From Dechloromonas sp. HYN0024 (GTDB lineage Bacteria; Pseudomonadota; Gammaproteobacteria; Burkholderiales; Rhodocyclaceae): a stretch of 64,000 bases of DNA. The notes below the pieces were generated by a model that worked only from the letters and a program-made list of their open reading frames with translations, was not told the DNA's origin and searched no databases. The number at the start of each line of letters is the position of its first letter. Position 1 is the stretch's first letter. The stretch covers positions 2,922,001 to 2,986,000 of the forward strand of contig NZ_CP031842.1 of NCBI RefSeq assembly GCF_003441615.1, in the 5' to 3' direction. Made by a program: the position numbers and the translations under genes. Shown here piece by piece: positions 12,621 through 34,130 of this stretch.

Positions 12621-12667
12621 ATACCGGCCCGGTATGGCCGACCTCATAAATTTGTATTGGACGGGCT
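12621..12667 (+). promoter_or_regulatory. Composite LysR operator/promoter, site D (hpaI-like gene)
   Basis: ATACC-GGCCC-GGTAT at 12621-12635 is a perfect dyad with the T-N11-A LysR pattern. After exactly 17 bp comes TGTATTGGACGGGCT at 12653-12667, matching GGTATTGGACGGTAT at 12 of 15 positions. TTGGAC could be the -35, with CATAGT 18 bp further on as a -10. The aldolase gene starts 73 bp downstream. The same 47-bp layout occurs at 21.6, 26.1 and 34.1 kb. Confidence 0.72.
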
Positions 12668-12739
12668 GCGATGGGCCGGCCATAGTATTTCTCCAAGATC
12701 TGGCGTGTATTGCCCGCCAAACACTGGAAGCCTGCCACC

Positions 12740-13537
12740 ATGAAAATTCCCTGCAACCAATTCAAGATCGACCTGCGCCAGGGCGAAACCCTGCTCGGCC
12801 TGTGGCTGGGCCTGAGCGAAACCTTCAGCGCCGAAATCTGCGCCGGGGCCGGCTTCGACTGGCTGCTCATCGATGGCGAACATGGCCCGAACGACCTGCG
12901 CAGCATCCTCGCCCAGTTGCAGGCGATCGAACCCTATCCCTCGCATGCCATCGTCCGTCCGCCGCAGGGCGACCATGTGCTGATCAAGCAACTGCTCGAA
13001 ACCGGCGTCCAGACCCTGCTCATCCCGATGGTCGAAACGGCCGAGCAAGCGGCCGGCCTTGTCCGCGCCATGCGCTATCCGCCGGCCGGCATACGTGGCG
13101 TTGGCGCGGCGCTGGCCCGTGCCTCTCGCTGGGGCCGAATCGACGATTACAGCGCCCTGGCCAACGAGCAGATGTGCCTATTGCTGCAAGTTGAGACAAA
13201 ACTCGGTTATGAGAACCTCGACGAAATTCTCGCCGTCGACGGAGTCGACGGCATTTTCTTTGGCGCCGCCGACCTCGCCGCCTCCTACGGCCTGCTCGGC
13301 CAGGCCAATCATCCGAGCATCGTCGAGGCCATCGAGGCCGGCCTCAAAAAGACCCGCGCTGCCGGCAAGAGCGGCGGCGTTCTCTGTGGCGACAAGGCCA
13401 TTGTCGAACGCTACTTCGCAGCCGGTGCACGCTTCATCGCCGTCGGGGTGGACGCCCTGCTGCTCGCCGCCGCCACCACCGAACTGCGCCGGGTGTACCG
13501 GCCGGAGCCGGGCGGCAAAAGCGCCGCCAACTACTGA
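12740..13537 (+). CDS. HpaI/HpcH-family class II (pyruvate) aldolase
   Basis: 265 residues from the ATG at 12740 with GGAAG upstream; an ATG 30 bp earlier has no site. HpaI-family landmarks: [15 protein letters not shown] (catalytic His), [10 protein letters not shown] (Arg), metal-ligand Glu in [17 protein letters not shown], and [12 protein letters not shown] (Asp). Such enzymes cleave 2-keto-4-hydroxy acids to pyruvate and an aldehyde, for example 2,4-dihydroxyhept-2-ene-1,7-dioate or 4-hydroxy-2-oxovalerate-like substrates. No homoprotocatechuate genes are nearby. The LysR-type operator upstream ties it to the dmp set-1 regulon, where it could act on meta-pathway ketoacids. Exact substrate unknown. 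Confidence 0.85.
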
Positions 13538-13578
13538 TCCTGGCCAACAACGAGCGGCGCTTTGCCGCCCGAAAAAGC

Positions 13579-14184
13579 CTAAACCAGCCCCTCTGCCTTC
13601 ATCGCTGCCTGCACCCCCGGCCGCGCCAGCACCCGCTGATGGAAAGCCGCCAGCGTCGGCCACGGGGCGAGATCGATTTTGACAAAGCGCGTCCAGTTCA
13701 CCACCGTGAACAGATACGCATCGGCCACGCAGAAAGCCCGGCCGGTCAGGTAGTCACGCCCGGCCAGCGCCTTCTCGACAAAGCCGAAACGCCGTTCGAT
13801 ATTGGCCAGCGCCGCCGCTTTCCAGTCGACCGAGGCAGCCGGATTGAACAGCGGACTGAAATTCTTGTGCAGTTCGGTGCCAATGAAGGTCAGCCATTCC
13901 TGCACGCGAGCCCGCTCCAGCGTACCGGCGGGCGGCAGCAGGCCGGCAGCCGGCTTCAGGTCGGCCAGGTACTGGACGATGGCCGGGCCTTCGGTGAGCA
14001 ACTGGCCGTCGTCGAGTTGCAGGGCCGGCACGTAGCCCTTGGGATTGATCGCCGTGAAATCCTCGCCGGTCGCAGTGAGATGGGTAGACAGTTCGACCTT
14101 GACCAGGTCATGCGGCAAGCCAAGTTCGCACAGCACGATGTGCGGTGACAGGGAACAGGCGCCAGTGGCGTAATAAAGCTTTAT
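13579..14184 (-). CDS. Beta-class glutathione S-transferase (BphK-like), probable AUA start
   Basis: About 201 residues. The conserved family start KLYYATGACSLSPHIVLCELG (Cys in GACS typical of beta-class GSTs) directly follows codon ATA at 14184, which sits 5 nt after a full AAGGAG. No ATG, GTG or nearby TTG fits. A TTG at 14208, 24 bp upstream, has no ribosome site and would add residues not usual for the family. The GSH-site motif NPKGYVPAL and EGPAIVQYLADL are intact, as is the all-helical C-terminal domain. Last gene of the set-1 meta operon; GSTs of this class often accompany aromatic-degradation genes. It ends 41 bp from the convergent aldolase gene. Confidence 0.83.
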   Translation of the reverse strand: MKLYYATGACSLSPHIVLCELGLPHDLVKVELSTHLTATGEDFTAINPKGYVPALQLDDGQLLTEGPAIVQYLADLKPAAGLLPPAGTLERARVQEWLTFIGTELHKNFSPLFNPAASVDWKAAALANIERRFGFVEKALAGRDYLTGRAFCVADAYLFTVVNWTRFVKIDLAPWPTLAAFHQRVLARPGVQAAMKAEGLV

Positions 14185-16193: not shown

Positions 16194-17249
16194 TCAGGTG
16201 GCGGCGTCCTTGAGCAAGCCACGCTCCTTGGCCATGGTCATGGCCGTATCGACAATCATATCCTCCTGACCGCCGATCATCTTCTTGCGGCCCAATTCGA
16301 CCAGAATATCGCGGGCCGGCACGCCAAAACGTTCGGCGGCACGCTTGGCGTGCAACAGGAAGGTCGAATAGACACCGGCAAAACCGAGCGTCAGGGACGA
16401 ACGGTCAACCCGCACCATGTGGTCCATGAGCGGCACGATGAGGTCTTCGGCCATGTCCATGAGCTTGAACAGGTCGCAACCGGTGACAATGCCCATGCGT
16501 TCGCACACGGCCACAAAGACTTCCAGCGGCGTATTGCCGGCGCCGGCGCCGAGGCCGGCGACAGAAGCGTCGATGCGCGTCGCACCTTCCTCAATCGCCG
16601 CGATGGAATTGGCGATGCCCATGCCCATGTTGTGGTGGCCATGGAAGCCGATTTCGGTTTCCGGCTTGAGGACAGCGCGCAGGGCACCGACCCGCGCCTT
16701 GACGTCAGCCGGCAGCATGTAGCCGGCCGAGTCGGTGATGTACACCGTCTGCGCCCCATAGGACTCCATGAGCTTGCCTTGCTGGGCGAGGCCTTCCGGC
16801 GTATTGAGATGGGCCATCATGAGGAAGCCCGAGGTGTCCATGTCCAGCTTGCGGGCAAAAGCGATGTGCTGTGGCGAGGTGTCGGCTTCGGTGCAGTGGG
16901 TGGCGACGTGCACGCTGCGCGCACCACAGTCGTAGGCCGACTTCAGTTCCTTCATCGTACCCAGGCCGGGGATGAGCAGCACCGAGACCTTGGCCTGCTT
17001 CATTTTGGCCGCCACGGCGGTGATGTATTCCTCGTTGCTGTGTGGCGCGAAACCATGTTGCAGCGAATTGCCACCCATGCCAGCCCCGTGCGTAACTTGA
17101 ATCAGCGGCACGCCGGCCTCGTCGAGAGCGGTGGCAATGCTGACCATCTGTTCGATGCTCATCTGCTCGCGCTTGGCATGCATGCCGTCGCGCAGCGACA
17201 TGTCGTGAATGATGATCGGGCGACCCTTGAGACTTTGCTCGGCGCTCAT
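16194..17249 (-). CDS. dmpG: 4-hydroxy-2-oxovalerate aldolase (set 1)
   Basis: 351 residues. A DRE-TIM aldolase that splits 4-hydroxy-2-oxovalerate to pyruvate and acetaldehyde and channels the aldehyde to DmpF. Visible: [16 protein letters not shown] (catalytic Arg and metal Asp), the metal-binding [15 protein letters not shown], and [18 protein letters not shown]. The C-terminal communication domain ([24 protein letters not shown]) is present, as in DmpFG complexes. It overlaps dmpF by 4 bp. A paralogue lies at 35209-36240. Confidence 0.96.
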
Positions 17250-18163
17250 GCTGTAACCTCCGGTGACTTGAGCTGGATGGTCCCAGCGATGATTTCATGG
17301 GCGAACATTTCCGCCGTGCGGGTCGCAGCGGCGGTCATGATGTCGAGATTGCCGGCGTACTTCGGCAGGTAATCGCCGAGACCGGCGACTTCCATGAAAA
17401 CGGTGACGCGCTTGCCATCAAACAGCGGGCCGTTGACCAGGCGATAGCCCGGCACATATTTCTGCACTTCCTTGATCATCTCCAGTACCGACTCGGTGAT
17501 ACGGGCCTGATCCGGCTCTTCATCGGTCAGGCACGAGATGGTGTTGCGCATCATCATCGGCGGCTCGGCCGGGTTGATGATGGCCAGCGCCTTGCCCTTG
17601 CGCGCGCCGCCGACGATCTCGATGGCGTTCGAGGTGGTGTAGGTGAACTCATCGAGATTGGCGCGGGTGCCCGGGCCAATCGATTTCGAGGCGAGGCTGG
17701 CGACGATTTCGCCATAGCCGACAGCCTGGATGCGCGACACGGCAAAGACGATGGGGATCGTCGCCTGCCCGGCGCAGGAAATCATGTTCACGTTCATCTC
17801 GACTTTTTCGGCATGCGACTTGAGATTGACCGGTGGCACGCACAAAGGGCCGATGGCCGCCGGTGTCAGGTCGATCATCATGACGCCGAGCTCATTGAGC
17901 TTGCGCGAGTTTTCGGCATGCACGTAAGCGCTGGTCGCATCGAAGGCGATCTGGATATTGTCTTCCAGCACATGCGGCAACAGGCCGTCGACGCCGGCAG
18001 CGGTGGTCTTCAAGCCCATCTCACGGGCGCGAGCGAGGCCTTCTGATTCGGGGTCGATACCGACCATCCACACCGGCTCGAGGACCGGGCTGCGCTGGAT
18101 CTTGTAGATCAGGTCGGTGCCGATATTGCCCGAGCCGATCAGGGCGCATCTGATTTTCTTCAT
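17246..18163 (-). CDS. dmpF: Acylating acetaldehyde dehydrogenase (set 1)
   Basis: 305 residues from the ATG at 18163 (GGAG 9 nt upstream). It converts acetaldehyde, CoA and NAD+ to acetyl-CoA in complex with DmpG. NAD-binding [12 protein letters not shown] at the N-terminus, catalytic Cys in [14 protein letters not shown], and the family stretch [20 protein letters not shown]. Length is normal. The set-2 copy is at 36258-37172. Confidence 0.96.
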
Positions 18164-18180
18164 GGTGCTTTTCTCCAAAA

Positions 18181-18399
18181 CTACGATTTTTCGGCCGCGT
18201 TGGCGGCTAACTCCTGACGTCGTCCGGCGGTTACCCCGCCGACCGAAAATTCTTCACAGCTATGCTCGGTAATGAGCAGACGGACCTGCTCCGGGCCAAC
18301 CCCCAGGGTGCGCGTCACTGCTTCCGCCACGGCTTCGGCCACAGCCCGTTTCTGTTCGATGCTGCGGCCCTGCATGAGGTGCATTTCGATGATCGGCAT
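18181..18399 (-). CDS. dmpI: 4-oxalocrotonate tautomerase (set 1)
   Basis: 72 residues from the ATG at 18399. After Met removal the four residues known to matter in 4-OT are all in register: Pro1, Arg11 (in [10 protein letters not shown]), Arg39 (in EQVRLL) and Phe50 (in EEFSVGG). It interconverts 2-hydroxymuconate and 2-oxo-3-hexenedioate. The tail is some 8-10 residues longer than the classical enzyme. It lies between dmpH and dmpF with short gaps. Confidence 0.93.
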
Positions 18400-18418
18400 C
18401 CTTGTCTCCTCCTGTTTT

Positions 18419-19222
18419 TTATTCGATGAACCGCATCGACACGCTGCCCAGCTCCTGGAAGCGCGCCACGATGCTGTCGCCCGGTTTGACCGGAACGGCC
18501 TCGGTAATGCCGCCACTCATGACGAAGCTGCCGGCCGGCAGTTCTTCGCCCAGTTCGGCGAGGATATTGACCAGCATGGCAATCGCTTCGGCCGGGTGGC
18601 CGAGGACGGCAGCCGAAGCGCCGAGGGTGACGATTTCGCCGTTTTTCTCCATGACGACGCCAAGCGTGCGCAGATCAATGTCGGCCGGATAACGGGCGCG
18701 GCCGCCACCGACGTAACGCGCCGAAGAACCGTTGTCGGCGACGACGCTTTCCAGATCGAACTTGAAGCCGGAGAAACGCGAGTCGATGATCTCGACCGCC
18801 GGCAGCACGTAATCAGTGGCGTCCAGCACATCCTGCCGGGTGCAGTTCGGGCCTTTGAGGGTCTTCTTCATGACGAAGGCGACTTCACACTCGACACGCG
18901 GATGAACCAGATCAGAAGTCTTGATCGCCGAATTTTCCGGACGCGCCATGCGGTCGGTGAGGAAGCCGATGGAGGGCACATTGACGCCCATCTGGATCAT
19001 CTTGGCCTTCGAGGTCAGGCCAGCCTTCCAGCCGACCTGCTTGTGGCCGGCAGCCAGGAAACGACGACGCAGTTCGAGTTGCACGGCGTAGCCATCACCG
19101 ATGGTCATGCCCGGATATTCGTCGGTCAACTTGGGGATCGCATAGGCCCGCGTCTGGGCGCCTTCGATGCGCTCGCACAGACGAACGACATCTTCGCGAT
19201 TAAGGGTGACAGTCATGCTCAT
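18419..19222 (-). CDS. dmpH: 4-oxalocrotonate decarboxylase (set 1)
   Basis: 267 residues, ATG at 19222 with AAGGAG upstream, overlapping dmpE by 4 bp. A member of the fumarylacetoacetase-related hydratase/decarboxylase family: GWKAGLTSKAKMIQMGV, HPRVECEVAFVMKKTLKGP, YVLPAVEIIDSRFSGFKFDLESVVADNGSSARYVGG. The DLESVVADN variant and pairing with DmpE distinguish DmpH from the hydratase. It makes 2-hydroxypenta-2,4-dienoate in a Mg-dependent complex with DmpE. Confidence 0.94.
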   Translation of the reverse strand: MSMTVTLNREDVVRLCERIEGAQTRAYAIPKLTDEYPGMTIGDGYAVQLELRRRFLAAGHKQVGWKAGLTSKAKMIQMGVNVPSIGFLTDRMARPENSAIKTSDLVHPRVECEVAFVMKKTLKGPNCTRQDVLDATDYVLPAVEIIDSRFSGFKFDLESVVADNGSSARYVGGGRARYPADIDLRTLGVVMEKNGEIVTLGASAAVLGHPAEAIAMLVNILAELGEELPAGSFVMSGGITEAVPVKPGDSIVARFQELGSVSMRFIE

Positions 19223-20016
19223 GCCTTGCTCCTTCCGGAAAACTTGACACTGCAGGTACCAAGGCCACCGACGGTCGCCACCAGTTCATCGCCATCAACC
19301 ACCGGGACGAGGGCCGATTGCGATCCGGAGAGAATCACCTCGCCGGCCTTGAAGGGAATGCCCAGTTCGCCCAGCGTATTGGCCAGCCAGGCGACCGCAT
19401 TGGCCGGCGACCCCTGCACGGCAGCACCGACGCCGGTCGAGAACAGTTCGCCGTTCTTCTCCAGCACCATGCCGGCCAGCGTGATGTCGAGCTTGCGCGG
19501 ATCGCCCTGGGTCTTGCCCAACACATAGACGCCGCAGGAAGCGTTATCGGCGACCGTATCCTGGATCTTGATCTTCCAGTCAGTGATGCGCGAATCGACG
19601 ATCTCGAAGCAGGGCAGCACATAGTCGGTGGCACGAATGACGTCCATCGCCGTAATGCCCGGCCCCTTGAGGTCTTCCTTGAGGACAAACGCCAGTTCGG
19701 CCTCGGCCTTCGGCTGGATCAGCGTGGCGAGATCGATGGTGTCGCCTTCCTGATAGACCATGCCGGAAAGCAGCATGCCGAAATCGGGCTGATAGACGCC
19801 GAGAAAATCCTGCACCGGCTTGCTGGTCGCGCCGATCTTCTTGCCGATGATCGTTTCGCCAGCCTGGACGCGGCGAGCGACGAAGCGTTCCTGAATCTGG
19901 TAGGCGTCCTCGATGGTGATGTCCGGCTCGCGCTCGAGGAGCGGACGCACCGGGCGACAAGCGAGCCAGGCTTCGTAAAGCTCGTCGCCGTAGGCGGCGA
20001 TTTTGGTTTGGTCCAT
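19219..20016 (-). CDS. dmpE: 2-hydroxypent-2,4-dienoate (2-oxopent-4-enoate) hydratase (set 1)
   Basis: 265 residues. Same fold as DmpH but with hydratase-type motifs: GKKIGATSKPVQDFLGVYQPDFG, QPKAEAELAFVLKEDLKGPG, YVLPCFEIVDSRITDWKIKIQDTVADNASCGVYVLG. It adds water to give 4-hydroxy-2-oxovalerate for DmpG. First after dmpC in the operon (9-bp gap) and overlapping dmpH. Confidence 0.94.
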   Translation of the reverse strand: MDQTKIAAYGDELYEAWLACRPVRPLLEREPDITIEDAYQIQERFVARRVQAGETIIGKKIGATSKPVQDFLGVYQPDFGMLLSGMVYQEGDTIDLATLIQPKAEAELAFVLKEDLKGPGITAMDVIRATDYVLPCFEIVDSRITDWKIKIQDTVADNASCGVYVLGKTQGDPRKLDITLAGMVLEKNGELFSTGVGAAVQGSPANAVAWLANTLGELGIPFKAGEVILSGSQSALVPVVDGDELVATVGGLGTCSVKFSGRSKA

Positions 20017-20025
20017 TTTTTGGCC

Positions 20026-21486
20026 TCAGAGCTTGACGCAAATATTTCGCGTCTCGGTATAGAACTCGAGCGAATGGACGCCACCTTCGCGGCCAATGCC
20101 GGATTGCTTGGAGCCGCCAAAGGCCGTGCGCAGGTCACGCAGAAACCAGCTGTTGATCCAGGTGATACCGACTTCAACGCGGGCCGCAACCCGGTGGGCG
20201 CGCGCCAGGTTGGTCGTCCAGATCGTCGTCGACAGGCCGTAGTCGTTAGCGTTGGCCTTGTTGATGACTTCGTCTTCGCTGTCGAAGGGACTGATGTGGC
20301 AGCACGGTCCGAAGATTTCCTCGCGCACGACCGTGGCGGTTTCCGGCAGGCCGGTCCAGATCGTCGGCTGCACCCAGTGGCCATCGGCCAGATCGGCTGG
20401 CATGGTGGGCACACCACCGCCGGTCACGACGTTGGCCCCTTCGGCCGCCGCCTTGGCGTAGTAGGACATGACCTTCTGCTTGTGCTCGGCACTGATCAGC
20501 GGGCCGTAGTTGGCGTCCTTGTCGTCGGGCCGACCGAATTTGACGGCCTCTGCCTTCACCTTCAGTGCTTGAACAAACTTGTCGAAAATCGGCCGCTCGA
20601 CATAGACGCGTTCGGTGCCCAGGCAGACCTGGCCGGAATTGAGGAAGGCCGAACGGAAAATGCCGTCAACTGCCGCATTGAAATCGGCATCGGCAAAGAC
20701 AATGCCGGCATTCTTGCCACCCAGCTCGAAGGACACATCGCGCATGCCTTCGGCGGCCGCCTTCATGATCGCCGTGCCGGTGCGCGTTTCGCCCGTGAAG
20801 GTGATGGCATCGACGAGCGGATGCTGGGTCAGGAACTCGCCGGCCGAGTCGGGGCCAAAACCGTGGATGACGTTGAAGACACCGGGCGGAATACCCACCG
20901 AATTCATCACTTCGCCCAGCAGCGTGGTGGTCAGCGGCGTTTCTTCCGACGGTTTGACGACGACGGTATTGCCGCAGGCCAGTGCCGGGCCGACTTTCCA
21001 GGTCATGAGCAGGAAGGGCGCATTCCACGGCGAAATCACCCCGACCACACCCTTGGGGACGCGGATAGCATAGTTCAGCGCCCCGGCACCATCCGGTGTC
21101 GGCATCTGAAAGGACTCGCTCGGCACATTCTTGACGACATCGGCGAAGACCTTGAAATTCGCAGCGCCACGCGGAATGAAGACATGGCGCATGACGTGAT
21201 TTGGCTGACCGGTATCGGCCATTTCCGCAGCAACGAAATCCTCGAAACGACGCGTGATTTCATCGGCCACACCGTAGAGCAGATCGACGCGCTGGTCGGT
21301 GGTCAGGCCACCCCAGACACCATGACGGGCGGCATGGGCGGCACGCACGGCGGCATCGACATCGGCCTTGCCGGCCTCGGAGACCTGCGCGATGACTTGG
21401 TTATCGAGCGGCGAACGCTTCTCGAAAGTCTTGCCTTCGCTTCCTTCGACAAATGCACCGTTGATGAAATTCTTGATCAGTTGCAC
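20026..21486 (-). CDS. dmpC: 2-hydroxymuconic semialdehyde dehydrogenase (set 1)
   Basis: 486 residues, aldehyde dehydrogenase superfamily. VISPWNAPFLLMTWKVGPAL (catalytic Asn region), FTGETRTGTAIM (cofactor loop), FELGGKNAGIVFADAD (general base Glu) and NSGQVCLGTERVYVE (nucleophilic Cys) are all present. It oxidises the ring-cleavage semialdehyde to 2-hydroxymuconate (4-oxalocrotonate branch). It is the first gene of the set-1 lower operon and lies about 100 bp downstream of a LysR-type operator. Set 1 has no hydrolase (dmpD), so this branch is its only complete route. Confidence 0.95.
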   Translation of the reverse strand: MQLIKNFINGAFVEGSEGKTFEKRSPLDNQVIAQVSEAGKADVDAAVRAAHAARHGVWGGLTTDQRVDLLYGVADEITRRFEDFVAAEMADTGQPNHVMRHVFIPRGAANFKVFADVVKNVPSESFQMPTPDGAGALNYAIRVPKGVVGVISPWNAPFLLMTWKVGPALACGNTVVVKPSEETPLTTTLLGEVMNSVGIPPGVFNVIHGFGPDSAGEFLTQHPLVDAITFTGETRTGTAIMKAAAEGMRDVSFELGGKNAGIVFADADFNAAVDGIFRSAFLNSGQVCLGTERVYVERPIFDKFVQALKVKAEAVKFGRPDDKDANYGPLISAEHKQKVMSYYAKAAAEGANVVTGGGVPTMPADLADGHWVQPTIWTGLPETATVVREEIFGPCCHISPFDSEDEVINKANANDYGLSTTIWTTNLARAHRVAARVEVGITWINSWFLRDLRTAFGGSKQSGIGREGGVHSLEFYTETRNICVKL

Positions 21487-21585: not shown

Positions 21586-21632
21586 ATACCGTCCAATACC
21601 TTGTTTTCTGATTTCCTATACCAACAAGGTAT
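21586..21632 (-). promoter_or_regulatory. Composite LysR operator/promoter, site A (dmpC operon)
   Basis: Read on the minus strand: ATACC-N5-GGTAT dyad (21618-21632, T-N11-A type), exactly 17 bp, then GGTATTGGACGGTAT (21586-21600). TTGGAC may serve as -35, with TAGACT about 19 bp on as -10. dmpC starts 100 bp downstream. It lies in the 319-bp gap 21487-21805, which otherwise holds no supported gene or clear terminator. Confidence 0.8.
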
Positions 21633-21805: not shown

Positions 21806-22159
21806 TTACGCTGCCAGCAAAGAATTCAGCCCCGGCGTGCTGAAGCGTAACTGCTCCTTGTGGACAATGCCGTTGTCGGCCAGACTGGCAGCCAGATTAG
21901 GCTTCCACGGCTGCCCGGACTTCATCCAGGCAACCTGCGTCAGATCAACGGCTGCCGCATCTGGATCAGGCCCGATCAGTGGCTTGACGACGTTCTGCAA
22001 CAAGTCGCCGAGCAGCATGCCCGGCTCGACAACGAGCATCAAGGGCGTCGCGAACAGCATGTGATGATCCCAGCAAACATAGACGATCTGCTTGCCATTG
22101 AAGTTTTGTACCAGGTCGCGCGGGACGGCGACGTAGGGTTTGGTTGAGGTCACGGCCAT
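21806..22159 (-). CDS. dmpO: Phenol hydroxylase P4 subunit (set 1)
   Basis: 117 residues. Matches DmpO in length and signatures: YVAVPRDLVQNFNGKQIVYVCWDHHMLFATPLMLVVEP, VDLTQVAWMKSGQPWKPN and a C-terminal STPGLNSL. DmpO (gamma-type subunit) completes the (LNO)2 oxygenase of multicomponent phenol hydroxylases. It is 17 bp after dmpN and is the last gene of the set-1 oxygenase operon; dmpP does not follow. Confidence 0.92.
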   Translation of the reverse strand: MAVTSTKPYVAVPRDLVQNFNGKQIVYVCWDHHMLFATPLMLVVEPGMLLGDLLQNVVKPLIGPDPDAAAVDLTQVAWMKSGQPWKPNLAASLADNGIVHKEQLRFSTPGLNSLLAA

Positions 22160-22176
22160 TTAATTTCTCCTGATTT

Positions 22177-23697: not shown

Positions 23698-23716
23698 TGC
23701 GGTCTCCTTCTGGCGC

Positions 23717-23986: not shown

Positions 23987-23995
23987 GGCGGCTCC

Positions 23996-24988
23996 TCAGA
24001 TTTCCACACCGATTTTCTTCAGGCGCCCCTTGAAGGAATCGACCTCTTCAGCGACAGCCTCCTCGGCATCCGCGGCCAGCGCTTTGCGGGCAACCGGCAA
24101 CAGGGCGGCGGCAGCGCGCTGGCTCCACTTGTCGGTCCACTCCTGAAGAATGAGGCGGTTATGCTCGGACTCGGCTGCAGCCACCTTCATCACGGCATCG
24201 ACCCACTTGCGGGTTTCGTCGAACCAGTCGCTCATGAACTGGCAGAGCATAGCGACAGACGAGGCGCCCTGGGTCGACAGGGTGCCGTCGACGATGCGTT
24301 CATAGACGAGCGGATAGAGCAGGCCATCGAGAGCCACGTTCTGGGCGACAAACAATTCGAAGGGATCGCGCACGACCAGGCAGTCTTCAACATAGCGGCG
24401 CATCGGCTGCCAGGCTTCGTCGTCCATCCAGGCGGTCTTGCCTTCGGTCAGGGCCTCCTGATCGCCGAGCAGCAAGCCAAGGCGCGACAGATATTGGGCA
24501 ATGCCAAGGTTGTCCATGGCGTGGAACATGCACGCCTGGGTGAAGATCGCAGCATAGCCGTAACCTGAAATGAAGGAATTGTGCATGTTGGCGCCCCAGG
24601 CGGCGTGACGCAGCGGCACCAGCACATCGAGCGCGAGACGCTTGAGTTCTTCCGGCAACATCTCGACCAGACCACGGCTTTCGACAAATGTGAAATTCGC
24701 TTCCGCGGTTTCCTGCTGGCGGGCACGGGCCAGCGTGTAGTTGTTGTAGAAATACTGGCGTGGGTCTTTCAGCGCATACCAGTCGGCCATGACGATCTTG
24801 GTGATCGAGGCATCGTAGATCAGTTGATCCGGATCCCAGGTCGGGCGGTAGTGCAGGTTTTCAGTCGCCTGGATGTCGTAGCTGGCTTCCTGGTAGCGCG
24901 AGGCCGGCTTGTCGCCGAAACGGCGCGCCAGATGATCGAAGGTATTGCGCTGCTGTTTGATGCTGACGGTGCGAAGATCGATTTGCAT
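23996..24988 (-). CDS. dmpL: Phenol hydroxylase P1 (beta) subunit (set 1)
   Basis: 330 residues: QIDLRTVSIKQQRNTFDHLARRFGDKPASRYQEASYDIQ at the start, LKDPRQYFYNNYTLARARQQETAE, and the family's YGYAAIFTQACMFHAMDNLGIAQYLSRL. It is homologous to DmpN but lacks a complete set of iron ligands, as in the family, and forms the dimer core with DmpN. It follows dmpB after an 88-bp gap that contains a strong hairpin and no dmpK. Confidence 0.95.
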   Translation of the reverse strand: MQIDLRTVSIKQQRNTFDHLARRFGDKPASRYQEASYDIQATENLHYRPTWDPDQLIYDASITKIVMADWYALKDPRQYFYNNYTLARARQQETAEANFTFVESRGLVEMLPEELKRLALDVLVPLRHAAWGANMHNSFISGYGYAAIFTQACMFHAMDNLGIAQYLSRLGLLLGDQEALTEGKTAWMDDEAWQPMRRYVEDCLVVRDPFELFVAQNVALDGLLYPLVYERIVDGTLSTQGASSVAMLCQFMSDWFDETRKWVDAVMKVAAAESEHNRLILQEWTDKWSQRAAAALLPVARKALAADAEEAVAEEVDSFKGRLKKIGVEI

Positions 24989-25034
24989 CGTTCTTTCTCC
25001 TTTTTGATTTATTTGAACCGCGCCAGGCAGGCGC

Positions 25035-25067
25035 CCACGTCGTTCGCCGCAACGGCGAACGACGTGG
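25035..25067. repeat. Perfect 15-bp stem-loop between dmpB and dmpL (set 1)
   Basis: CCACGTCGTTCGCCG, loop CAA, CGGCGAACGACGTGG: a perfect inverted repeat in the intergenic space. There is no following T-run on the minus strand, so it is not a standard intrinsic terminator. It could stabilise or punctuate the dmpB-LMNO transcript. Confidence 0.7.
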
Positions 25068-25076
25068 CGGCAAAGA

Positions 25077-26006
25077 TCAGCTGACGACAGTCAGGAAGGT
25101 TTCGTGCAGTTTGCGCTGCGGGTAATCGAGGCCCTGACCGAAGTTGTCGAAGGTCCATGTCATGGTTTCGTAGTCGGGGTAAGGCAGATGACCCCCGAAG
25201 AAGGTCTCGAAACGGTTGCCCGACGGATCCCAGGCATAGATGGTGCAGCCACGCGTGACGCCGTGGCGGGTCGGGCCGATATCGACCGGGACAGCATTCA
25301 TCGACATGATGTCGCCACCGCGCAGGACCTGTTCCCAGCTTTCCATGAGGAAGGAGCAGTGATGCAACTTGCCCGGTTCCGGATATTCGGCGAAGGCGAT
25401 GTCATGGACCTTCTGCCCGCAGGACAGCCAGATCGCCGCGTTGCCATTGCCATCCGGCGTCAGCACACGTTCGACGAGGTAGAAGCCGAGGACTTCGGTA
25501 AATATCTTCTGCACTTCGGCGACATTCGGCCCGTAGAGCAGGGCGTGGTCGAGGCGCGTCGGCGCAATGCCGTTGTCGCGTGCCTTGCTCCACGGCGCTG
25601 GATTGATCAGAGGAATGCCGTTGCCGACCTTGGTCTTCTCGGCAAACAACTCCATGACATGGCCGGAGGGCAGCGTGAAGCGCACGCGCTCGCCAGTTTC
25701 CAGCATTTCACCGGCCGGAATTCGTTCGGTCTTCAGACCGTAGGCCTGCAGATCGGCGTCAAATTTGTCCAGCGTCGCCTTGTCGAGGACGCGGAAGGCG
25801 AAGAAATCGAGGCCGGCCCGGTCAGCCTGTCGGATGACGTAACTGTGGTGGTCACGCTCGTCCCAGCATTTGAAATAGACGCGACCCTGGGCGTCACGGC
25901 CGGTTTCGACCAGACCGAGTACATCGCGGTAAAAAGTGATTGCTTCTTCCAGATCCAGCACGCGAACCTGCGCGTGCCCAGGACGTAGTACGCCTGTGAG
26001 TGCCAT
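25077..26006 (-). CDS. dmpB: Catechol 2,3-dioxygenase (set 1)
   Basis: 309 residues, two-domain extradiol dioxygenase. The three Fe(II) ligands are in place: His in TRLDHALLYGP, His in PGKLHHCSFLMESW and Glu in GNRFETFFGG. It cleaves catechols next to the diol to 2-hydroxymuconic semialdehyde. Unusually it is the first gene of the oxygenase operon, upstream of dmpLMNO rather than after dmpP/Q. The start has a purine-rich site and lies 107 bp from operator site B. The set-2 paralogue is at 41563-42489. Confidence 0.96.
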   Translation of the reverse strand: MALTGVLRPGHAQVRVLDLEEAITFYRDVLGLVETGRDAQGRVYFKCWDERDHHSYVIRQADRAGLDFFAFRVLDKATLDKFDADLQAYGLKTERIPAGEMLETGERVRFTLPSGHVMELFAEKTKVGNGIPLINPAPWSKARDNGIAPTRLDHALLYGPNVAEVQKIFTEVLGFYLVERVLTPDGNGNAAIWLSCGQKVHDIAFAEYPEPGKLHHCSFLMESWEQVLRGGDIMSMNAVPVDIGPTRHGVTRGCTIYAWDPSGNRFETFFGGHLPYPDYETMTWTFDNFGQGLDYPQRKLHETFLTVVS

Positions 26007-26112: not shown

Positions 26113-26159
26113 ATACTGTCCAATACCAGATTTGGCACAACGCCATACCTTTTTGGACA
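26113..26159 (-). promoter_or_regulatory. Composite LysR operator/promoter, site B (dmpB-L-M-N-O and divergent LysR gene)
   Basis: On the minus strand GGTATTGGACAGTAT (26113-26127) lies 17 bp from a half-conserved dyad (GGTAT kept at 26145-26149; the outer arm is TGTCC instead of ATACC). TTGGAC plus TAATCT at 18 bp gives a good -35/-10 for dmpB. The site is 19-65 bp upstream of the LysR start, as expected for an autoregulated divergent pair. Confidence 0.78.
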
Positions 26160-27186: not shown

Positions 27187-28500
27187 TCAGTCACCACCGC
27201 GCAGGTTCTGCACCTGGAAGAGGCCCGGAGGAGCCTTCTTCGGATCGACCTGGCCCTTGAACTGGGCGGTCGTGCAATGCTTGGCCTGGACGTCAACCAT
27301 GATCACGCCATCATCGATACCGATACCGGAACCCTTGTTGACCGGCAGGTGATGGTCAGGATGCGACTTGCCAACGCTGAAGGCCTTCCACAGTTCGCCC
27401 TTGCGGTCGTAAATGTCGATGGCGCCATTCACGTTCTGCAACTGGGCATCCATGTAGAAAGTCCGCTTGCTAATCGGATGGTTCGGATTGACCGGAGCCG
27501 CTTCGAGCACATAGACCTTGCGCAGCTGCCAGGTGGCATCCGGGAAGCAACCGCCCTGACCACCGTAGTTCACGAACTTGTAACCGTCGGCTTCCTTGAA
27601 CTCGTCGGAGAGCTTGAGTTCGTTGTGGTTCCACATCGGCAACAGCATGTTCTTGGTGCCCTTGTAGGTCCACTTCATGTCGGAAACGCGACCGTTGTAG
27701 CCTTCGAAGTCTTCAATCATCAGATCGGAGCCGAGGAAGGAGTCGGTCACCTGGCCCTGGGCCAGACGACGGACGCGACGCTGGAAGCCGAGATACAGGT
27801 AGGCATCGTCAAGCTTGCTGTCGTCTTCGAAACGCTGGATGAGGAGCTGAGTGTTCTTCAGATCCTGCGGCTCGTTGGCCTTGACGTAAATGGCGCGGTA
27901 GATGCCCGACGGATTCGGGGTGATTTCCGGAATCGGCGCATTGTTGGTGCGATGCATGAAGTTCAGGAAGTGGAAGTCATACTTGATGGTCTTCTCAATC
28001 TGCCCGGTGGTCATGTTGCGATAACGCCAGTAGAACGGCGAGATGACGGCACCGTCACCCCAGTTCACACCGTACTTGTAGTTCCAGGCCAGCTTTTCGC
28101 CAGCGCGCGGATCTTTCAGATCCGGCTCTTCCGGGAACGGACGGCCGGCCACGTAGCCGGTCAGATTGTCGCCCGGCTTGGCACCCAGCTTGGTCTTGTT
28201 CAGATTGGCCTTGGTGGCGTTGATGTAGCCACTGTTGATCATGAACTGGGTGGTGGCACCGACTTTCATTTCGAAAGCACCATCCTTGATCAGCTTGTGC
28301 AGACCGACCGAAAGAACTTCCTTGAACTGGTCGGCATTGGCCTTGTTGATCACCGTACCCGGCGTCACACCGGCAACGCTGGGCATGCCGGCCTTGTAGG
28401 GATTAAAGGTGTTTTCGACATCAGCTTCCGTCGCAGCGAATGCCGAGCCGACAAATCCTGCTGCCACGAGGGGCAGCAGGGAAATCATGGCTTTTTTCAT
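27187..28500 (-). CDS. DUF1329-family exported protein
   Basis: 437 residues with a clear signal peptide (KKAMISLLPLVAAGFVGSAFA). I recognise the DUF1329 family, predicted periplasmic/outer-membrane-associated with a lipoprotein-carrier-like beta fold. Landmarks are NPYKAGMPSVAGVTPGTVINKANADQF, AGRPFPEEPDLKDPRAGEKLAWN and the C-terminal KAFSVGKSHPDHHLPVNKGSGIG. Members are regularly found beside DUF1302 and RND genes in degraders of hydrophobic or aromatic compounds; the biochemical role is unknown. Last gene of the LysR-linked envelope operon, 21 bp after the DUF1302 gene. Confidence 0.87.
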   Translation of the reverse strand: MKKAMISLLPLVAAGFVGSAFAATEADVENTFNPYKAGMPSVAGVTPGTVINKANADQFKEVLSVGLHKLIKDGAFEMKVGATTQFMINSGYINATKANLNKTKLGAKPGDNLTGYVAGRPFPEEPDLKDPRAGEKLAWNYKYGVNWGDGAVISPFYWRYRNMTTGQIEKTIKYDFHFLNFMHRTNNAPIPEITPNPSGIYRAIYVKANEPQDLKNTQLLIQRFEDDSKLDDAYLYLGFQRRVRRLAQGQVTDSFLGSDLMIEDFEGYNGRVSDMKWTYKGTKNMLLPMWNHNELKLSDEFKEADGYKFVNYGGQGGCFPDATWQLRKVYVLEAAPVNPNHPISKRTFYMDAQLQNVNGAIDIYDRKGELWKAFSVGKSHPDHHLPVNKGSGIGIDDGVIMVDVQAKHCTTAQFKGQVDPKKAPPGLFQVQNLRGGD

Positions 28501-28521
28501 GTGTTTGTCTCCGGGTAGAAG

Positions 28522-30531
28522 TTAGAACTTGTAGTTAACACGAACGAAGATGTCGTTTTCCTTGAACGCGGCGCCAATCGGGCCGGCGCGGAAGCGACCG
28601 AGGGGTTCCATGCCGCCCAGACCATAGGACTGGCCAACACCCTGAACGCCTGCGTTGTAGCTGGTGAAGGGCTCGTACGGATTACAGGAACGGCAGTCAT
28701 CGAACTTCCAGCGCGAACGACCTTCAGCCAGTTTGTAGTTGGCACCGAGGGTCACCTTCAGATCGTTCGTCGCATTCCACTCGATCTGCGGCGCAATTGC
28801 CGAAGCCTGGGCCTGGAAGTCATGGGCGAAGATGATCTGCGGGCTGAGCGTGCCATTGCGCAGGAAGGCCTTGATCAGCAGGGTAGCGATGAAGTTGTCC
28901 TTCCAGTCAGGCATACCGACCGGGCCGAGAGGACCTTGGTTATACTCGTGATTGAAGATGTGCTGGTAGAACAACTGACCGGAGAACAGCGTGGCCGAGG
29001 TCTCGCTGATGAACGGAACAAAGGTCGGACGATCGAGACCGATGACCGAACGGAACACATTGTTCTTCGAGTACAACTCGGTCCGCGCCGTATTGGCGAA
29101 TTCCTCACCGCTGGTATAGGCACCTTCCATACGAACTGCAGCGCCGATAGACGGAAGCTGGAAGTCCATCGAGCCACCAATCAGGTTAACGCGCGGGAAG
29201 TACATATCAAAGGCGATCAGGCTCTTGACCGGCCCAACGCCAGGAATATTCCCATTGCCACCGGTGAAGGGATTGACCGTACCATTACCATTGATCGAAT
29301 GCAGCGACGGCAGTTGCGAACGATAAGTCAGGGCATTGAGCGAGAAGGACAAACCGTTCGCAGTCACGCCTTCAAACTTGCCACCCAGTTGGGTGTTGGA
29401 CAGCGTCCAGTTCGGAAGATGAACCGTACGGATACCAATCTGATGCGGTCCGAAATCGGTTGCCACCGTGCCACCGCCGGCGAAGTTCGACACCGTGCCA
29501 CCGTTATCCCACAGATTAGCCATACCGCGGAAGAAACAGCCCGCATCCAGAATCACGTTCGGCGTACCGCACTGGCCCAGGTTGTTGGCGCGGAATTGAT
29601 CAAAGTTCCAAACCACCTGGAAGTTACGATCCTGCATCGACTCGCTGGCCCCCATGCGATATTCGCCCTGGGCGATCCACATCGGGATACGGATGTCGGA
29701 CAGTTCGTCGTATATGTTGTTACGCGAATAATCAACCGGGTTGATCACATCGAGCACGCGGAATAGGTCCGTACGGCCCCACACCACCTGCTGCTTACCC
29801 ACCTTGAGGAACAGTTCCTTGCCATCGCCGAGATCGAAAGTCTTCTTGGCGTACAACTCGCGAACGAAGTCGAGGCGCTTATTGAATTCCGGCATTTCCA
29901 GTTCGGACAGCTTCTTGTCACCATAGCCACCAAAGTCTCGGCAGCCACGGCTATCGACATCGCACGGACGGACCGGGACGCCAAATGCCACGCCACCCTC
30001 GGTTGCATGCCAACGGTCGCCAAGAACACGCATACCCTCGTTAGGGTTTTGGGTCAGATTAAAACCAAAAGCATTGGTTCCCGGCAGGCCCAGAGCAACA
30101 CCAATCGGGTTATTGACACCACCACCGTGAGGCACATAGGGCAGATTCAATGGCGTTCCGGCGTTGGTCGGGGCAGGCGGCAAGCCCGGCCCAGCGACGT
30201 TCTCTAGAACAATTGGCCCACCAGCATTCTTGCCATACTCGCTGCTGTTCATGCGATAAACGCCGTCATAGCTACCGCGCAGAATGCTGTGGATACCCCA
30301 GCCATTTCCGGCTTTCTTGTCCGCTTCAACCTGCAGCGTGTTGCGGAACTTGGCAAGACCGGTGTGCTCGCGATGTGCCGTATGGTTTTCATAGGTCACA
30401 TCGACCTGCCAGGGCGAAGATTCTTCGCCCATGGACGGCAGATCAGCTGCCCAGGCCTGTGATGCGAAAGTGGCGGAGAGCGCGGCCGCGATGAGCGTCA
30501 GACGCCTTCCAGTGTTTTGTTTTGTCTCCAT
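28522..30531 (-). CDS. DUF1302-family outer-membrane beta-barrel-like protein
   Basis: 669 residues: signal peptide (GRRLTLIAAALSATFASQAWA), alternating amphipathic segments throughout and a C-terminal Phe after a beta strand (ENDIFVRVNYKF), the usual outer-membrane sorting end. Motifs such as FLKVGKQQVVWGRTDLFRVLDVINPVDYSRN are typical of DUF1302. Likely an outer-membrane channel or binding protein working with the DUF1329 and RND partners; possible passage of hydrophobic aromatic substrate or product is inference. Several Cys pairs (CDVDSRGC, CRSC) suggest disulfides in loops. Confidence 0.87.
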   Translation of the reverse strand: METKQNTGRRLTLIAAALSATFASQAWAADLPSMGEESSPWQVDVTYENHTAHREHTGLAKFRNTLQVEADKKAGNGWGIHSILRGSYDGVYRMNSSEYGKNAGGPIVLENVAGPGLPPAPTNAGTPLNLPYVPHGGGVNNPIGVALGLPGTNAFGFNLTQNPNEGMRVLGDRWHATEGGVAFGVPVRPCDVDSRGCRDFGGYGDKKLSELEMPEFNKRLDFVRELYAKKTFDLGDGKELFLKVGKQQVVWGRTDLFRVLDVINPVDYSRNNIYDELSDIRIPMWIAQGEYRMGASESMQDRNFQVVWNFDQFRANNLGQCGTPNVILDAGCFFRGMANLWDNGGTVSNFAGGGTVATDFGPHQIGIRTVHLPNWTLSNTQLGGKFEGVTANGLSFSLNALTYRSQLPSLHSINGNGTVNPFTGGNGNIPGVGPVKSLIAFDMYFPRVNLIGGSMDFQLPSIGAAVRMEGAYTSGEEFANTARTELYSKNNVFRSVIGLDRPTFVPFISETSATLFSGQLFYQHIFNHEYNQGPLGPVGMPDWKDNFIATLLIKAFLRNGTLSPQIIFAHDFQAQASAIAPQIEWNATNDLKVTLGANYKLAEGRSRWKFDDCRSCNPYEPFTSYNAGVQGVGQSYGLGGMEPLGRFRAGPIGAAFKENDIFVRVNYKF

Positions 30532-30576
30532 GGATCAAACCCCCAATGGTGTTGTTAAAAAAAGTTTGCTGTTCCC

Positions 30577-30592
30577 CTCCGGTCTTCCGGAG
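30577..30592. repeat. Small inverted repeat between the RND and DUF1302 genes
   Basis: CTCCGG-TCTT-CCGGAG, a 6-bp stem right after the RND stop. On the minus strand a run of seven T follows, but about a dozen bases later, so it is at best a leaky terminator or processing site. Confidence 0.35.
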
Positions 30593-30597
30593 TGTTA

Positions 30598-32988
30598 TTA
30601 ATCGTTTTCCAGAACACCGTCTTCGTCGTAATGCACGGCCGTCACAAACTTGGGTTTGAAGACGACGCACCATGACGGCACGATCAGTACGGCAGCGATC
30701 GCGTTGACGATGAGCATGAAAGAAAGAAGGATCGCGGCGTCCGACTGGAAGCGCAGGTCGGACATGAAGATCCACATGACGACACCGGCGATCAGCGTCA
30801 CCGCCGTGAAGCTGACGGCGTAACCGGTGGTGGCGACAGCGGTGATGACGGCCTTCTTCATGTCGCGCATCACGGCGTACTCCTCGCGGATGCGGTCCAT
30901 GAAATAGACGGCGTAGTCGATACCGACCCCGACGCCGACGGCGATGACCGGCACGGTGTTCACGCTGATCCCAATGTTCAGGGCACCCATGTAGGCGTAG
31001 GTCATCAGCGTCGAGAACAGCATCGGCAGGATCATCAGCCAGCCGGCGTGCAGCGAGCTGTAATAGACCATGACGATAAAGAAGGCGAGCAGCATGACCG
31101 CCGGGATGATGATCATGTGGTCGGTATGCAGGGCCTGGTTGCCGGCCGCCGTGACGCCGATGATGCCGCCTCCGAGTTCGATGTGCAGACCGGGGACGTC
31201 CTTCTCGATCTGCTTGATGCCTTCTTCAGCCAGGGCGACGATGCGGTTGATCGTCTCGGCCTGGTGGTCCTTGTAGTAGAAGACCATGTTGGCTTCGTTT
31301 TCGTCGGAAGTAACGAATTCCTTCAAGGCACCGGGAATCGGGCTGGAGGCCATGTAGGCGAACATCAGACCGCCGATTTCGTCGGCCGTGTCAGGCAATT
31401 GCATCCAGCGCGGATCGTCGTTGTGGGTCAGCTTGTTGACCACGCGCAGAACGCCCGGCATGGCCTTGGTGCCACCCAGCGTCGGGTCGGACAGCATGTG
31501 GGCCTGGAAACGCTCGATGGCGGCCATGACTTCCGGACGCTTGATGCCGCCCTTCTCCTCAACCCGTGCCGCGACGTGCAGTTCCTCGGAACCCGGGAAG
31601 CGCGTGTTGATTGCCTTGGTCGATACGTTGTAGTCGTGGCTCAGGTGCAGCAGCGGCGAGCCCGGCTCGGATTCACCAAGTTGCACCTTGCTCACGAAGT
31701 AGGTGCCACCAATGGCGCCGATCAGGGTCAGGATCAGGATGGAGCGGGCGCCACCATCGGTACCGCCGGTCAGGGCCATGGCCTTGCCGAGGAAGGCACG
31801 GATGCCTTCGTTACCGTTGTGGTGGTTCTTCGGCGCCGGCAGGATGGTCAGGGCCAGCGGGACCATGAAGTGCACCGTGAAGATCACCGAGAAACCCCAG
31901 AAACCAGCAGCCAGGCCGAGCTTGAAGTTGAAGGGCGCGGCACCGAGCATGAGGACGGCAATACCAACCGCATCGACGATGATGGCCAGCGAACCGGGAC
32001 GGAACAAGGCATCGAGCGCATTGCGGGCGGCCTTCTTGCCGTCATGGACAATGGCCAGTTCCTCGTAATAACGCACCACCAGCTGCACACCATGTGACGT
32101 GGCACGGGCGGCAATCAGGAAGGGAATCGGCAGGGAAAGCGGCTCGAGGTTGATGCCCATCGCCGCCATGAAGCCAAGGCCCCAGATTGACGACAGCGCA
32201 ATGCCGAGCAGCGGCAACGCCACACCGTAAAAACGTCGGAAGTAGAGAATCAGGAGGGCGGACAGCAGGAGCAGCGTCCACATCATAATCTCGACGATCT
32301 GGTTGAGATAGGTATAGACCCAGCCGGTGAGCACCGGGTTACCGGTCACATAAATCTTGTGCCCCGGCTTGGCCAGGGTCTCGCGCACCTGCTGCAGGGC
32401 GGCGAAAGTCGCCGGATAGTCGATCGAGCCCTCGTTCATCTGGGCCTTGATCAGCGCCGCCTTCATATCCGGCGAAACGAGCAGGCCGTAGATGGTCGGG
32501 TTGGCGATGACGTCGTTCTTCAACTGCTCGAGTTCGGCTACGGTACGGGTCGGCTTGAGCGGGTCGTAGTAGGACTCGGACGCGAAGCCGCCCTGGTCAT
32601 CGAGGAAGACCTTGCGCGCCGTGCGGTGCGTCAGGCTGCTGACCAGGTTGTGGTTAACGCTGGGCAGATTGTCCACGCCCTGGGTCGCTTCGTGAATCAG
32701 CTTGAGGGTTTCATCGTTGAAGATGGTGCCCTTGTCGACTTCGACCGACATGACGATCATGTTGGCGCCGCCGAAGTTCTCCTTCAGACGGTTGTAGACC
32801 TTGATGTAGCCGTGATTCTGCGGCAGCAGATCGGCAAAATCCGTGAAGACGCGCAGGCTGGGTAGGGCCATGCCGAACAGGCAGGTGACGAGCAGAACCA
32901 GCGACAGCACGATCTTGGGATTACGGAAAATCCATTCCTCGCCCTGATGCAGGGCGTGGGTAATGGCGTGACGTGTTTTTGCAACCAT
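30598..32988 (-). CDS. RND/MMPL-family membrane permease
   Basis: 796 residues, about 12 predicted spans in two repeats, each with a large extracytoplasmic loop. The layout is that of MMPL/HpnN-like RND proteins rather than AcrB (about 1,050 residues). First span: PKIVLSLVLLVTCLFGMALPSLRVF, then the family's TDFADLLPQNHGYIKVYNRLKENFGG. Conserved membrane blocks: GVALPLLGIALSSIWGLGFMAAMG and VIAVGVGVGIDYAVYFMDRIREE. Proton-driven export or lipid-type transport is the family role; substrate unknown. It is the second gene of the LysR-linked envelope operon, 20 bp after the YCF48-like gene. Confidence 0.92.
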   Translation of the reverse strand: MVAKTRHAITHALHQGEEWIFRNPKIVLSLVLLVTCLFGMALPSLRVFTDFADLLPQNHGYIKVYNRLKENFGGANMIVMSVEVDKGTIFNDETLKLIHEATQGVDNLPSVNHNLVSSLTHRTARKVFLDDQGGFASESYYDPLKPTRTVAELEQLKNDVIANPTIYGLLVSPDMKAALIKAQMNEGSIDYPATFAALQQVRETLAKPGHKIYVTGNPVLTGWVYTYLNQIVEIMMWTLLLLSALLILYFRRFYGVALPLLGIALSSIWGLGFMAAMGINLEPLSLPIPFLIAARATSHGVQLVVRYYEELAIVHDGKKAARNALDALFRPGSLAIIVDAVGIAVLMLGAAPFNFKLGLAAGFWGFSVIFTVHFMVPLALTILPAPKNHHNGNEGIRAFLGKAMALTGGTDGGARSILILTLIGAIGGTYFVSKVQLGESEPGSPLLHLSHDYNVSTKAINTRFPGSEELHVAARVEEKGGIKRPEVMAAIERFQAHMLSDPTLGGTKAMPGVLRVVNKLTHNDDPRWMQLPDTADEIGGLMFAYMASSPIPGALKEFVTSDENEANMVFYYKDHQAETINRIVALAEEGIKQIEKDVPGLHIELGGGIIGVTAAGNQALHTDHMIIIPAVMLLAFFIVMVYYSSLHAGWLMILPMLFSTLMTYAYMGALNIGISVNTVPVIAVGVGVGIDYAVYFMDRIREEYAVMRDMKKAVITAVATTGYAVSFTAVTLIAGVVMWIFMSDLRFQSDAAILLSFMLIVNAIAAVLIVPSWCVVFKPKFVTAVHYDEDGVLEND

Positions 32989-33008
32989 GGTGTTGTTCTC
33001 TCCCTGGC

Positions 33009-33974
33009 TTATTGTTTGGCGTGCGTGCTGACCGCACGGAGCAGCCCGCCGGGGCCGCCGATCACGATGGCCGACTGGCCGGGCAGGGAAGCGCCGCCAC
33101 CCAGGAAGACCGGCACCGCGTCGGTATAGGGCACGGCGCGCCAGCTGTTGCCTTCAAGCTGGGCAATGACGCCACCGGCACCGACGCCGAAGGGCTTGCC
33201 TTCATGCATGAACAGCCGATTGAGCGCGGCGCGCGTGGTATTGACCTGCTTGCTCCAGGTCTTGCCGCCATCGGTGGTGTGCAGCATCTGGCCAGCCACA
33301 CCGGCCACCCAGCCTTCGCTGCGCGAAGCAAACAGGGATGCGTAGGGATAGAACTCGCCCGGCATCTTGGGACCCTTCTTCCAGGTCGCACCGCCGTCCT
33401 CGGTCATCACCGTCAGGCCGAATTCACCGAGGGCGATGCCATTTTTCTCATCCAGAAACTGGATCGTCGTGATCTGGGTGTCTTCGCCCAGATCGGTGGT
33501 CTTCCAGGTGGCGCCACGATCCGCACTGCCGGAGATCACCGAATTGACGCCCGCCACCCACCAGCCACCCTGCTTGTCGCAGGTCACCGCCAGCGGCGTA
33601 CGCGGCATTTCGAGGGGAACCGACTTCCAGTTGGTGCCATCGGCATCGGCCGACCAGACCTTGTGATAGTGATCGATGGCGACAAAGCCCTGATCGCCGC
33701 AGACCGTCATGTCGACCAGCGAGGTATTGCCAAGCACCGTCCGTTTCCAGCTCTTGCCCTGATCTTCAGAGACCAGCACAGCACCACTTTGGGTGCCGGC
33801 GACAATGACCTTGCCATTGCTCGCCATCGCCTGACTGATGTCATAGCGCTGCACCGGGCGCAAACGCTCGGCGGCAATCCCAGACATGTCCGGGCCTTGC
33901 GAGCAGGCAGTAAGCGCCCCGCACGCAATGGTGGCGCCCAGCGGCAGCCACGATATTTTCTTCACCCAGTCCAT
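33009..33974 (-). CDS. YCF48/BNR-repeat exported lipoprotein
   Basis: 321 residues with a good lipobox (IACGALTACSQG), so probably an outer-membrane lipoprotein. The mature part is a beta-propeller made of BNR-like repeats (SEDQGKSWKRT, SADRGATWKTT, TEDGGATWKKG, TTDGGKTWSKQ), the layout of the YCF48/photosystem assembly factor-like family. A lead gene of this kind is common in operons with RND, DUF1302 and DUF1329 genes. It starts 110 bp downstream of LysR operator site C. Confidence 0.88.
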   Translation of the reverse strand: MDWVKKISWLPLGATIACGALTACSQGPDMSGIAAERLRPVQRYDISQAMASNGKVIVAGTQSGAVLVSEDQGKSWKRTVLGNTSLVDMTVCGDQGFVAIDHYHKVWSADADGTNWKSVPLEMPRTPLAVTCDKQGGWWVAGVNSVISGSADRGATWKTTDLGEDTQITTIQFLDEKNGIALGEFGLTVMTEDGGATWKKGPKMPGEFYPYASLFASRSEGWVAGVAGQMLHTTDGGKTWSKQVNTTRAALNRLFMHEGKPFGVGAGGVIAQLEGNSWRAVPYTDAVPVFLGGGASLPGQSAIVIGGPGGLLRAVSTHAKQ

Positions 33975-34083
33975 CCATTCCTCCAGTTATCCGTGCCTTT
34001 TTGGGTGGCACTTTTTTCCGTCATGTTTCGTTTAAAAAGCGAATGACTCTTTGCCTTGTTCAGACTATGCAACACCCCATACA

Positions 34084-34130
34084 ATACCGTCCAATACCAA
34101 TTAACGCGAACTTGAATACCCTTTAGGTAT
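34084..34130 (-). promoter_or_regulatory. Composite LysR operator/promoter, site C (envelope operon)
   Basis: On the minus strand ATACC-N5-GGTAT (34116-34130) is followed after 17 bp by GGTATTGGACGGTAT (34084-34098), identical in core sequence and spacing to site A. TTGGAC is a possible -35; a TA-rich -10 lies about 18-21 bp on. The YCF48-like gene starts 110 bp downstream. The rest of 33975-34222 holds no gene. Confidence 0.8.

Follow-up and report, generated by a model that had tools for sequence, protein, structure and literature searches.

Four promoters of Dechloromonas sp. HYN0024 share a 47-bp composite operator, and the evidence supports tying this operator to the LysR-type regulator encoded at 26178. 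The promoters lie in a stretch of 64,000 nt (the window; NZ_CP031842.1, positions 2,922,001-2,986,000), and all site coordinates are window positions. On sequence evidence the four sites are very probably inducible sigma-70 promoters activated by this AphT-like protein. The composite consists of an ATACC-N5-GGTAT palindrome, a 17-bp spacer and a downstream block, with 25 fixed bases in all. Sites, spacing, promoter elements, the link to the LysR gene and the adjacent genes were all computed directly.

Two sites match the full pattern exactly, one at the operon of dmpC (2-hydroxymuconic semialdehyde dehydrogenase, HMSD; 21586-21632, minus strand) and one at an envelope operon (34084-34130, minus strand), while 100 shuffles gave a mean of 0.00 and at most 0 matches. 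The site upstream of an HpaI-like aldolase gene (12621-12667, plus strand) has an intact palindrome and 3/25 mismatches, all in the last block, and the site between lysR and the catechol 2,3-dioxygenase (C23O) gene of the dmpB operon (26113-26159, minus strand) has 4/25, namely TGTCC for ATACC in the left arm and one base in the last block. An earlier note on this DNA had described the 47-bp layout at these positions, with 12/15 bases of the second block at the HpaI-like site, one degenerate arm at the dmpB site, identical N17 spacing at all four sites and a LysR gene at 26178 divergent from one of them, which is the dmpB site; each of these points was borne out. The distance of 73-110 bp to the start codon given there fits the measured gaps of 99, 106 and 109 nt and, for the HpaI-like gene, 72 nt from the ATG at 12740 as read by eye (42 nt by the scripted first-start rule, which takes a TTG). 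The LysR-type T-N11-A pattern claimed for the upstream dyad (ATAC-N7-GTAT) is present in three of the four sites, the exception being the dmpB site with its degenerate arm.

Since the four operons are neighbours in one cluster, with a second catechol dioxygenase and a second HMSD gene nearby, the copies might be recent duplicates of one promoter fragment, alike by descent and not by function. However, the 17-bp spacers, the N5 centres and the flanks all differ among the four sites, so that they do not resemble copies of one fragment, and no homology extends beyond the blocks. Most spacer and flank columns also vary freely over 81 non-redundant sites (109 de-duplicated sites, including the four of the window, minus 28 that were redundant or lacked flanks), while the blocks are kept. 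Recent promoter duplication was rejected because of the differing spacers, and we regard descent as a scarcely credible source of the likeness.

The whole genome (3,258,300 bp) was scanned for the composite, with the reversed pattern as control. With up to 3 mismatches the full pattern occurs at three sites only (control 0), and a 16-base core with up to 2 mismatches returns the same three palindromic sites, each with 0 mismatches (control 0). The last block alone, again with up to 2 mismatches, has four matches (control 1), which are the dmpC, envelope and dmpB sites and a partial match without known partner at 2466858. At the thresholds used for full pattern, core and last block there is no further composite copy in the genome, nor one at a second set of aromatic genes (~39.7-48.1 kb). 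The genome scan with the 47-bp pattern that the earlier note had put forward as a check thus gave no spread to unrelated genes at these thresholds, and scattering of the pattern over such genes is ruled out by the three scans.

The internal structure of the site is promoter-like. Among 119 downstream blocks the palindrome (up to 2 mismatches) lies at 17 bp in 97 cases, at 16 bp in 4, at 7 bp in 3 and at 29 bp in 2; 15 blocks have no palindrome, seven of them being the dmpB-type sites of the window and of loci L011-L016 (the own-genome loci L001-L008 were left out of the spacing, first-gene and leave-one-block-out analyses). At the promoter between lysR and the dioxygenase gene the left arm is degenerate not only in the window but also in each of these six relatives, with the rest of the site kept. 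In the 81 sites columns 19-29, in the middle of the spacer, are near random, and a purine at column 17 and A at columns 30-31 are favoured. A -10-like TAAnnT, never used for selection, emerges at columns 61-66. TAnnnT follows TTGGAC after 18 bp in 56/81 and after 19 bp in 15/81 sites, compared with 0/81 at each spacing from 12 to 17 bp and at most 3/81 from 20 to 25 bp. Because this -10 element lies 18 bp after TTGGAC, TTGGAC is placed at -35, as the earlier note had suggested, and the centre of the palindrome at about -65. With transcription predicted to start near column 73, two GGTAT half-sites fall close to -38 and -28. These are direct repeats, 10 bp apart, flanking the -35. Each block was still conserved when it was left out of selection in turn, and GGTA(T/A) after the -35, with its own block left out, was complete in 45/73 sites (56-65/73 per column). 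Judged from these elements, the layout is a classical LysR recognition site followed by an activation site overlapping the -35.

The proposed cognate regulator, P0001 (26178-27074, plus strand), belongs by domains and similarity to the CatR/BenM/CbnR subgroup. It carries PF00126 (N-terminal LysR helix-turn-helix) and PF03466 (C-terminal substrate-binding domain), both above cut-off, and its closest solved proteins are CbnR (E 5.8e-59), CatM (1.3e-50) and BenM (2.3e-49), with which it has a QPP(L/I)(T/S)RQ stretch in common. For CatM and BenM it does not reach the curated NCBIfam cut-offs, and it is therefore neither of these two. We call it AphT-like on the basis of gene context and site. Among the 15 candidates scored in its own genome three others pass E 1e-15, and since the best of them is 28% identical, a second close paralog is ruled out among these.

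In relatives the composite accompanies this regulator. We picked 82 loci by similarity to P0001 alone (2 plus the best 80 of 347 candidates; 1.457 Mb, with some near-duplicates), and these contain 95 composite matches at up to 6/25 mismatches (reversed-pattern control 0); at up to 5 mismatches the composite is present in 69/82 loci. In 150 genomes of the family the composite occurs in 21, the LysR protein (E≤1e-60, among the first 11-15 candidates scored per genome) in 27 and both in 20 (Fisher p=4.9e-18, a value that ignores kinship). The corresponding numbers for 200 genomes of the order are 4, 3 and 2, and the one order genome with the LysR protein only (G141) is the source of locus L010, which has a 16-bp version of the site. 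A shared LysR operator defining a regulon, as put forward in the earlier note, is supported by this association together with the fixed spacing and the -35/-10 arrangement.

Several points weigh against this assignment. No site at up to 5 mismatches was found in 13 of the 82 LysR-picked loci; two of these (L010, L080) keep the layout but with the spacer at 16 bp, and in five (L044, L051, L053, L055, L062) lysR has no divergent promoter, since it comes immediately after a XylR-type activator gene in the same orientation, which leaves six loci (L054, L081-L083, L089, L090) without explanation. Seven of the 27 family genomes with the LysR protein, at identities of 43-49%, lack the composite. Conversely, 3-mismatch sites occur without the LysR protein at 1e-60 in one family genome (G275) and in two order genomes (G010, G105), and such absences are not strict, because they refer to the 11-15 candidates scored first in each genome. 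With most of one palindrome arm gone, the dmpB site may be recognised less strongly or asymmetrically. Finally, the mechanistic steps proposed below are, beyond the site map, borrowed from BenM and CatR.

The sites could also be owned by another regulator of the cluster, of the GntR type (GntR/FCD, 42677-43390) or of the XylR/DmpR type (48757). Both genes lie inside the window, and the published AphS, AphR and AphT networks overlap in the operons that they control (PMC6449761). At up to 2 mismatches, however, the AphS motif has three matches in the window (48687, exact; 51158; 63779) and none at the four promoters, by which AphS as site owner is ruled out. XylR/DmpR-type proteins act with sigma-54, whereas the four promoters carry sigma-70-like -35 and -10 elements, and in relatives the composite tracks the LysR protein. 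Ownership by either regulator is therefore very improbable. The exact match to the published AphS/BphS motif (48687-48700) precedes the XylR/DmpR-type activator gene (48757) by about 56 bp.

For the LysR protein at 26178 we infer binding, activation and effector as follows. The palindrome ATACC-N5-GGTAT, centred at about -65, would be recognised with high affinity by one dimer of the tetramer, and GGTATTGGACGGTAT, which holds the -35 TTGGAC and has the -10 18 bp further on, would be the activation site for the second dimer. A metabolite of phenol or catechol breakdown would bind the regulator, and the second dimer would then take up a position in which the -35 becomes usable for RNA polymerase. 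In this way the catechol dioxygenase/phenol hydroxylase block, the lower meta pathway, the HpaI-like aldolase and the envelope operon would be switched on jointly. The second dimer may slide from the GGTAT downstream of the -35 to the upstream GGTAT, as in BenM, or may be added on induction, as in CatR.

For the sliding dimer, GGTATTGGACGGTA(T/A) can tentatively be read as a conserved two-register activation site, in which the two GGTATs are the inactive and the active docking positions. With their distance of 10 bp, about one helical turn, the resulting dyads would possibly lie some 32 and 22 bp away from that of the recognition site; we consider both proposals rather doubtful. The chances seem evenly balanced that the same regulator works without sliding, with the recognition site always bound and the activation site bound only with inducer, so that the downstream GGTAT would be just a portion of one enlarged activation site. 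The region protected by CatR of P. putida ND6 is described as 26 bp, widening to 48 bp when muconate is present (PMC9705993), and a dimer centred at column 40 would probably touch both GGTAT blocks together. On the other hand, the GGTATs are direct repeats and not an inverted pair, lie exactly 10 bp apart and are each independently conserved, and BenM is reported to stay on Site 1 and to exchange Site 3 for Site 2 on induction (PMC6628147). A sliding-dimer model has been described, for which no conserved ABS'' motif (ABS, activation binding site) is reported to have been deduced as of 2016 (PMC4730206). If the second dimer does slide between the two GGTATs, AphT-type promoters would be a clean natural test of this model.

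The genes behind the sites fit aromatic ring cleavage, with operon extents predicted from gene order. The 12621-12667 site precedes the gene of an HpcH/HpaI-family aldolase (12740-13537, plus strand). Behind the 21586-21632 site lie lower meta-cleavage genes (16194-21486, minus strand) for HMSD, DmpE, DmpH, acetaldehyde dehydrogenase and 4-hydroxy-2-oxovalerate aldolase. The dmpB operon starts with C23O (25077-26006, minus strand; TIGR03211, 412.9 bits), followed by the phenol hydroxylase core subunits DmpL, M, N and O (21806-24988, minus strand); neither DmpK nor the reductase DmpP is apparent in the open reading frame list of this block (21806-26006). The same dioxygenase and DmpLMNO block stands beside lysR in loci L012-L014, L016 and L057 and, partially at a contig end, in L011 and L015. 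The envelope operon (27187-33974, minus strand; site 34084-34130) encodes YCF48-like, MMPL/RND transporter, DUF1302 and DUF1329 proteins. We take the HpaI-like aldolase to be COG3836, the YCF48-like protein COG4447 and the MMPL protein COG1033. The dmpLMNO genes sit behind the C23O gene with the LysR site. Genes for dehydrogenase, dioxygenase and phenol hydroxylase occur a second time at ~39.7-48.1 kb, near the GntR-type and XylR-type regulator genes. Near the aromatic cluster a large protein with POR, TPP and DUF6537 domains, resembling a 2-ketoacid ferredoxin oxidoreductase, is encoded at 51412-54963.

Genes matching those of the window follow part of the sites in relatives. By the first-gene rule (first start codon, 100 aa), the 109 sites precede homologues of window genes for HMSD (16), the first (11) and second (3) catechol dioxygenase, the YCF48-like protein (7), a ferredoxin-like protein (4), the HpaI-like aldolase (3), the XylR-type activator (3), acetaldehyde dehydrogenase (2) and others (3), with 56 first genes lacking a window match and one site lacking a frame; these class counts are rough, because the rule gave some spurious frames (e.g. 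L012, L026). A 1-mismatch site lies ahead of an HpaI-like homologue in L056, L061 and L064, and in L061 the rule picked another frame although the HpaI-like gene sits behind the site. Pfam was run on 18 first genes (17 of the 56 unmatched ones and that of L110) and gave 11 DUF1302 and one DUF1329 protein, one XylR-type activator (L110) and five others, namely a Rieske oxygenase, a membrane transport protein, a dihydroxy-acid dehydratase-type protein, a frame matching DUF4160 and a periplasmic binding protein. In the order genomes G105 (L092) and G010 (L093) the composite precedes a gene for membrane transport and one of the dihydroxy-acid dehydratase type, respectively. The composite-like sites of L025, L026 and L110 (4, 4 and 1 mismatches) each have a XylR-type activator gene immediately downstream, an arrangement that may reflect a cascade from LysR to XylR such as has been proposed in Azoarcus BH72.

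Our analysis adds a well-supported regulon with one regulator, four sites and no further genome copy at the thresholds used. It links the cleavage of aromatic rings with an envelope operon of unknown role (DUF1302/DUF1329/MMPL/YCF48), for which a part in phenol or catechol metabolism can now be tested. The fixed module, i.e. palindrome, 16-17 bp and GGTATTGGAC, is a precise search key for this LysR subgroup, and the four promoters are a simple set for studying the movement of a LysR tetramer on induction.

An AphT regulon of Betaproteobacteria has been predicted in Rhodocyclales (Suvorova and Gelfand 2019, PMC6449761), with AphT known from Comamonas testosteroni TA441 and predicted in Dechloromonas aromatica RCB, Methylibium petroleiphilum PM1 and Azoarcus BH72. 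Like P0001, AphT is presented there as a CatR/ClcR-type LysR with a T-N11-A palindrome. Its D. aromatica RCB regulon is given as a COG3836 aldolase operon with aphB, aphC and other aph homologs, and it also takes in a COG4447/COG1033/PF07044/DUF1302 operon. The HYN0024 set matches this prediction, since HpaI-like aldolase, C23O, HMSD and YCF48-like/MMPL/DUF1329/DUF1302 genes are all behind sites. It differs in that the operons are split four ways, in that the activation site is mapped within a fixed 47-bp module, and in that one site faces a catechol dioxygenase/phenol hydroxylase block, whereas PMC6449761 assigns the phenol hydroxylase genes to AphS/AphR.

The same paper describes AkACC-N5-GGTAT as the CatR/ClcR recognition binding site (RBS) with an adjacent ABS (PMC6449761), an arrangement that the HYN0024 sites have in common with those of CatR, ClcR and TfdR. 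For a second clc cluster of Bordetella petrii it reports a half-lost RBS with the ABS retained (PMC6449761), which resembles the dmpB site, where half of the palindrome is gone and the activation site is kept. Among nine plasmid-borne LysR regions (L167 not included) eight show the same layout with 16-17 bp spacing and at most 3/20 mismatches, two of them on pJP4 with identical site sequence and 17-bp spacing; the sole miss is a Rhodococcus opacus plasmid region (L156). In the pJP4 and pIJB1 promoters covered here the second half-site after the -35 is CATAT, while in the AphT-type group it is mostly GGTA(T/A). BenM and CatM of Acinetobacter baylyi belong to the same protein subgroup, and their ATAC-N7-GTAT Site 1 is likewise described with a second site overlapping the -35 (PMC6628147), but they serve the benzoate/ortho pathway, respond to muconate and have three dyad-like sites, in contrast to one dyad and two direct half-sites here. 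A literature search for the letters of the blocks gave, among the matches listed (titles and abstract starts), titles unrelated to bacterial regulation. Since both the AphT regulon and the recognition-plus-activation layout have been published, the kind of system is already known, and HYN0024 is a new and unusually clean member of it. To this we add a catechol dioxygenase/phenol hydroxylase gene block behind one of the sites and a fixed module in which two GGTAT half-sites, 10 bp from each other, flank the -35.

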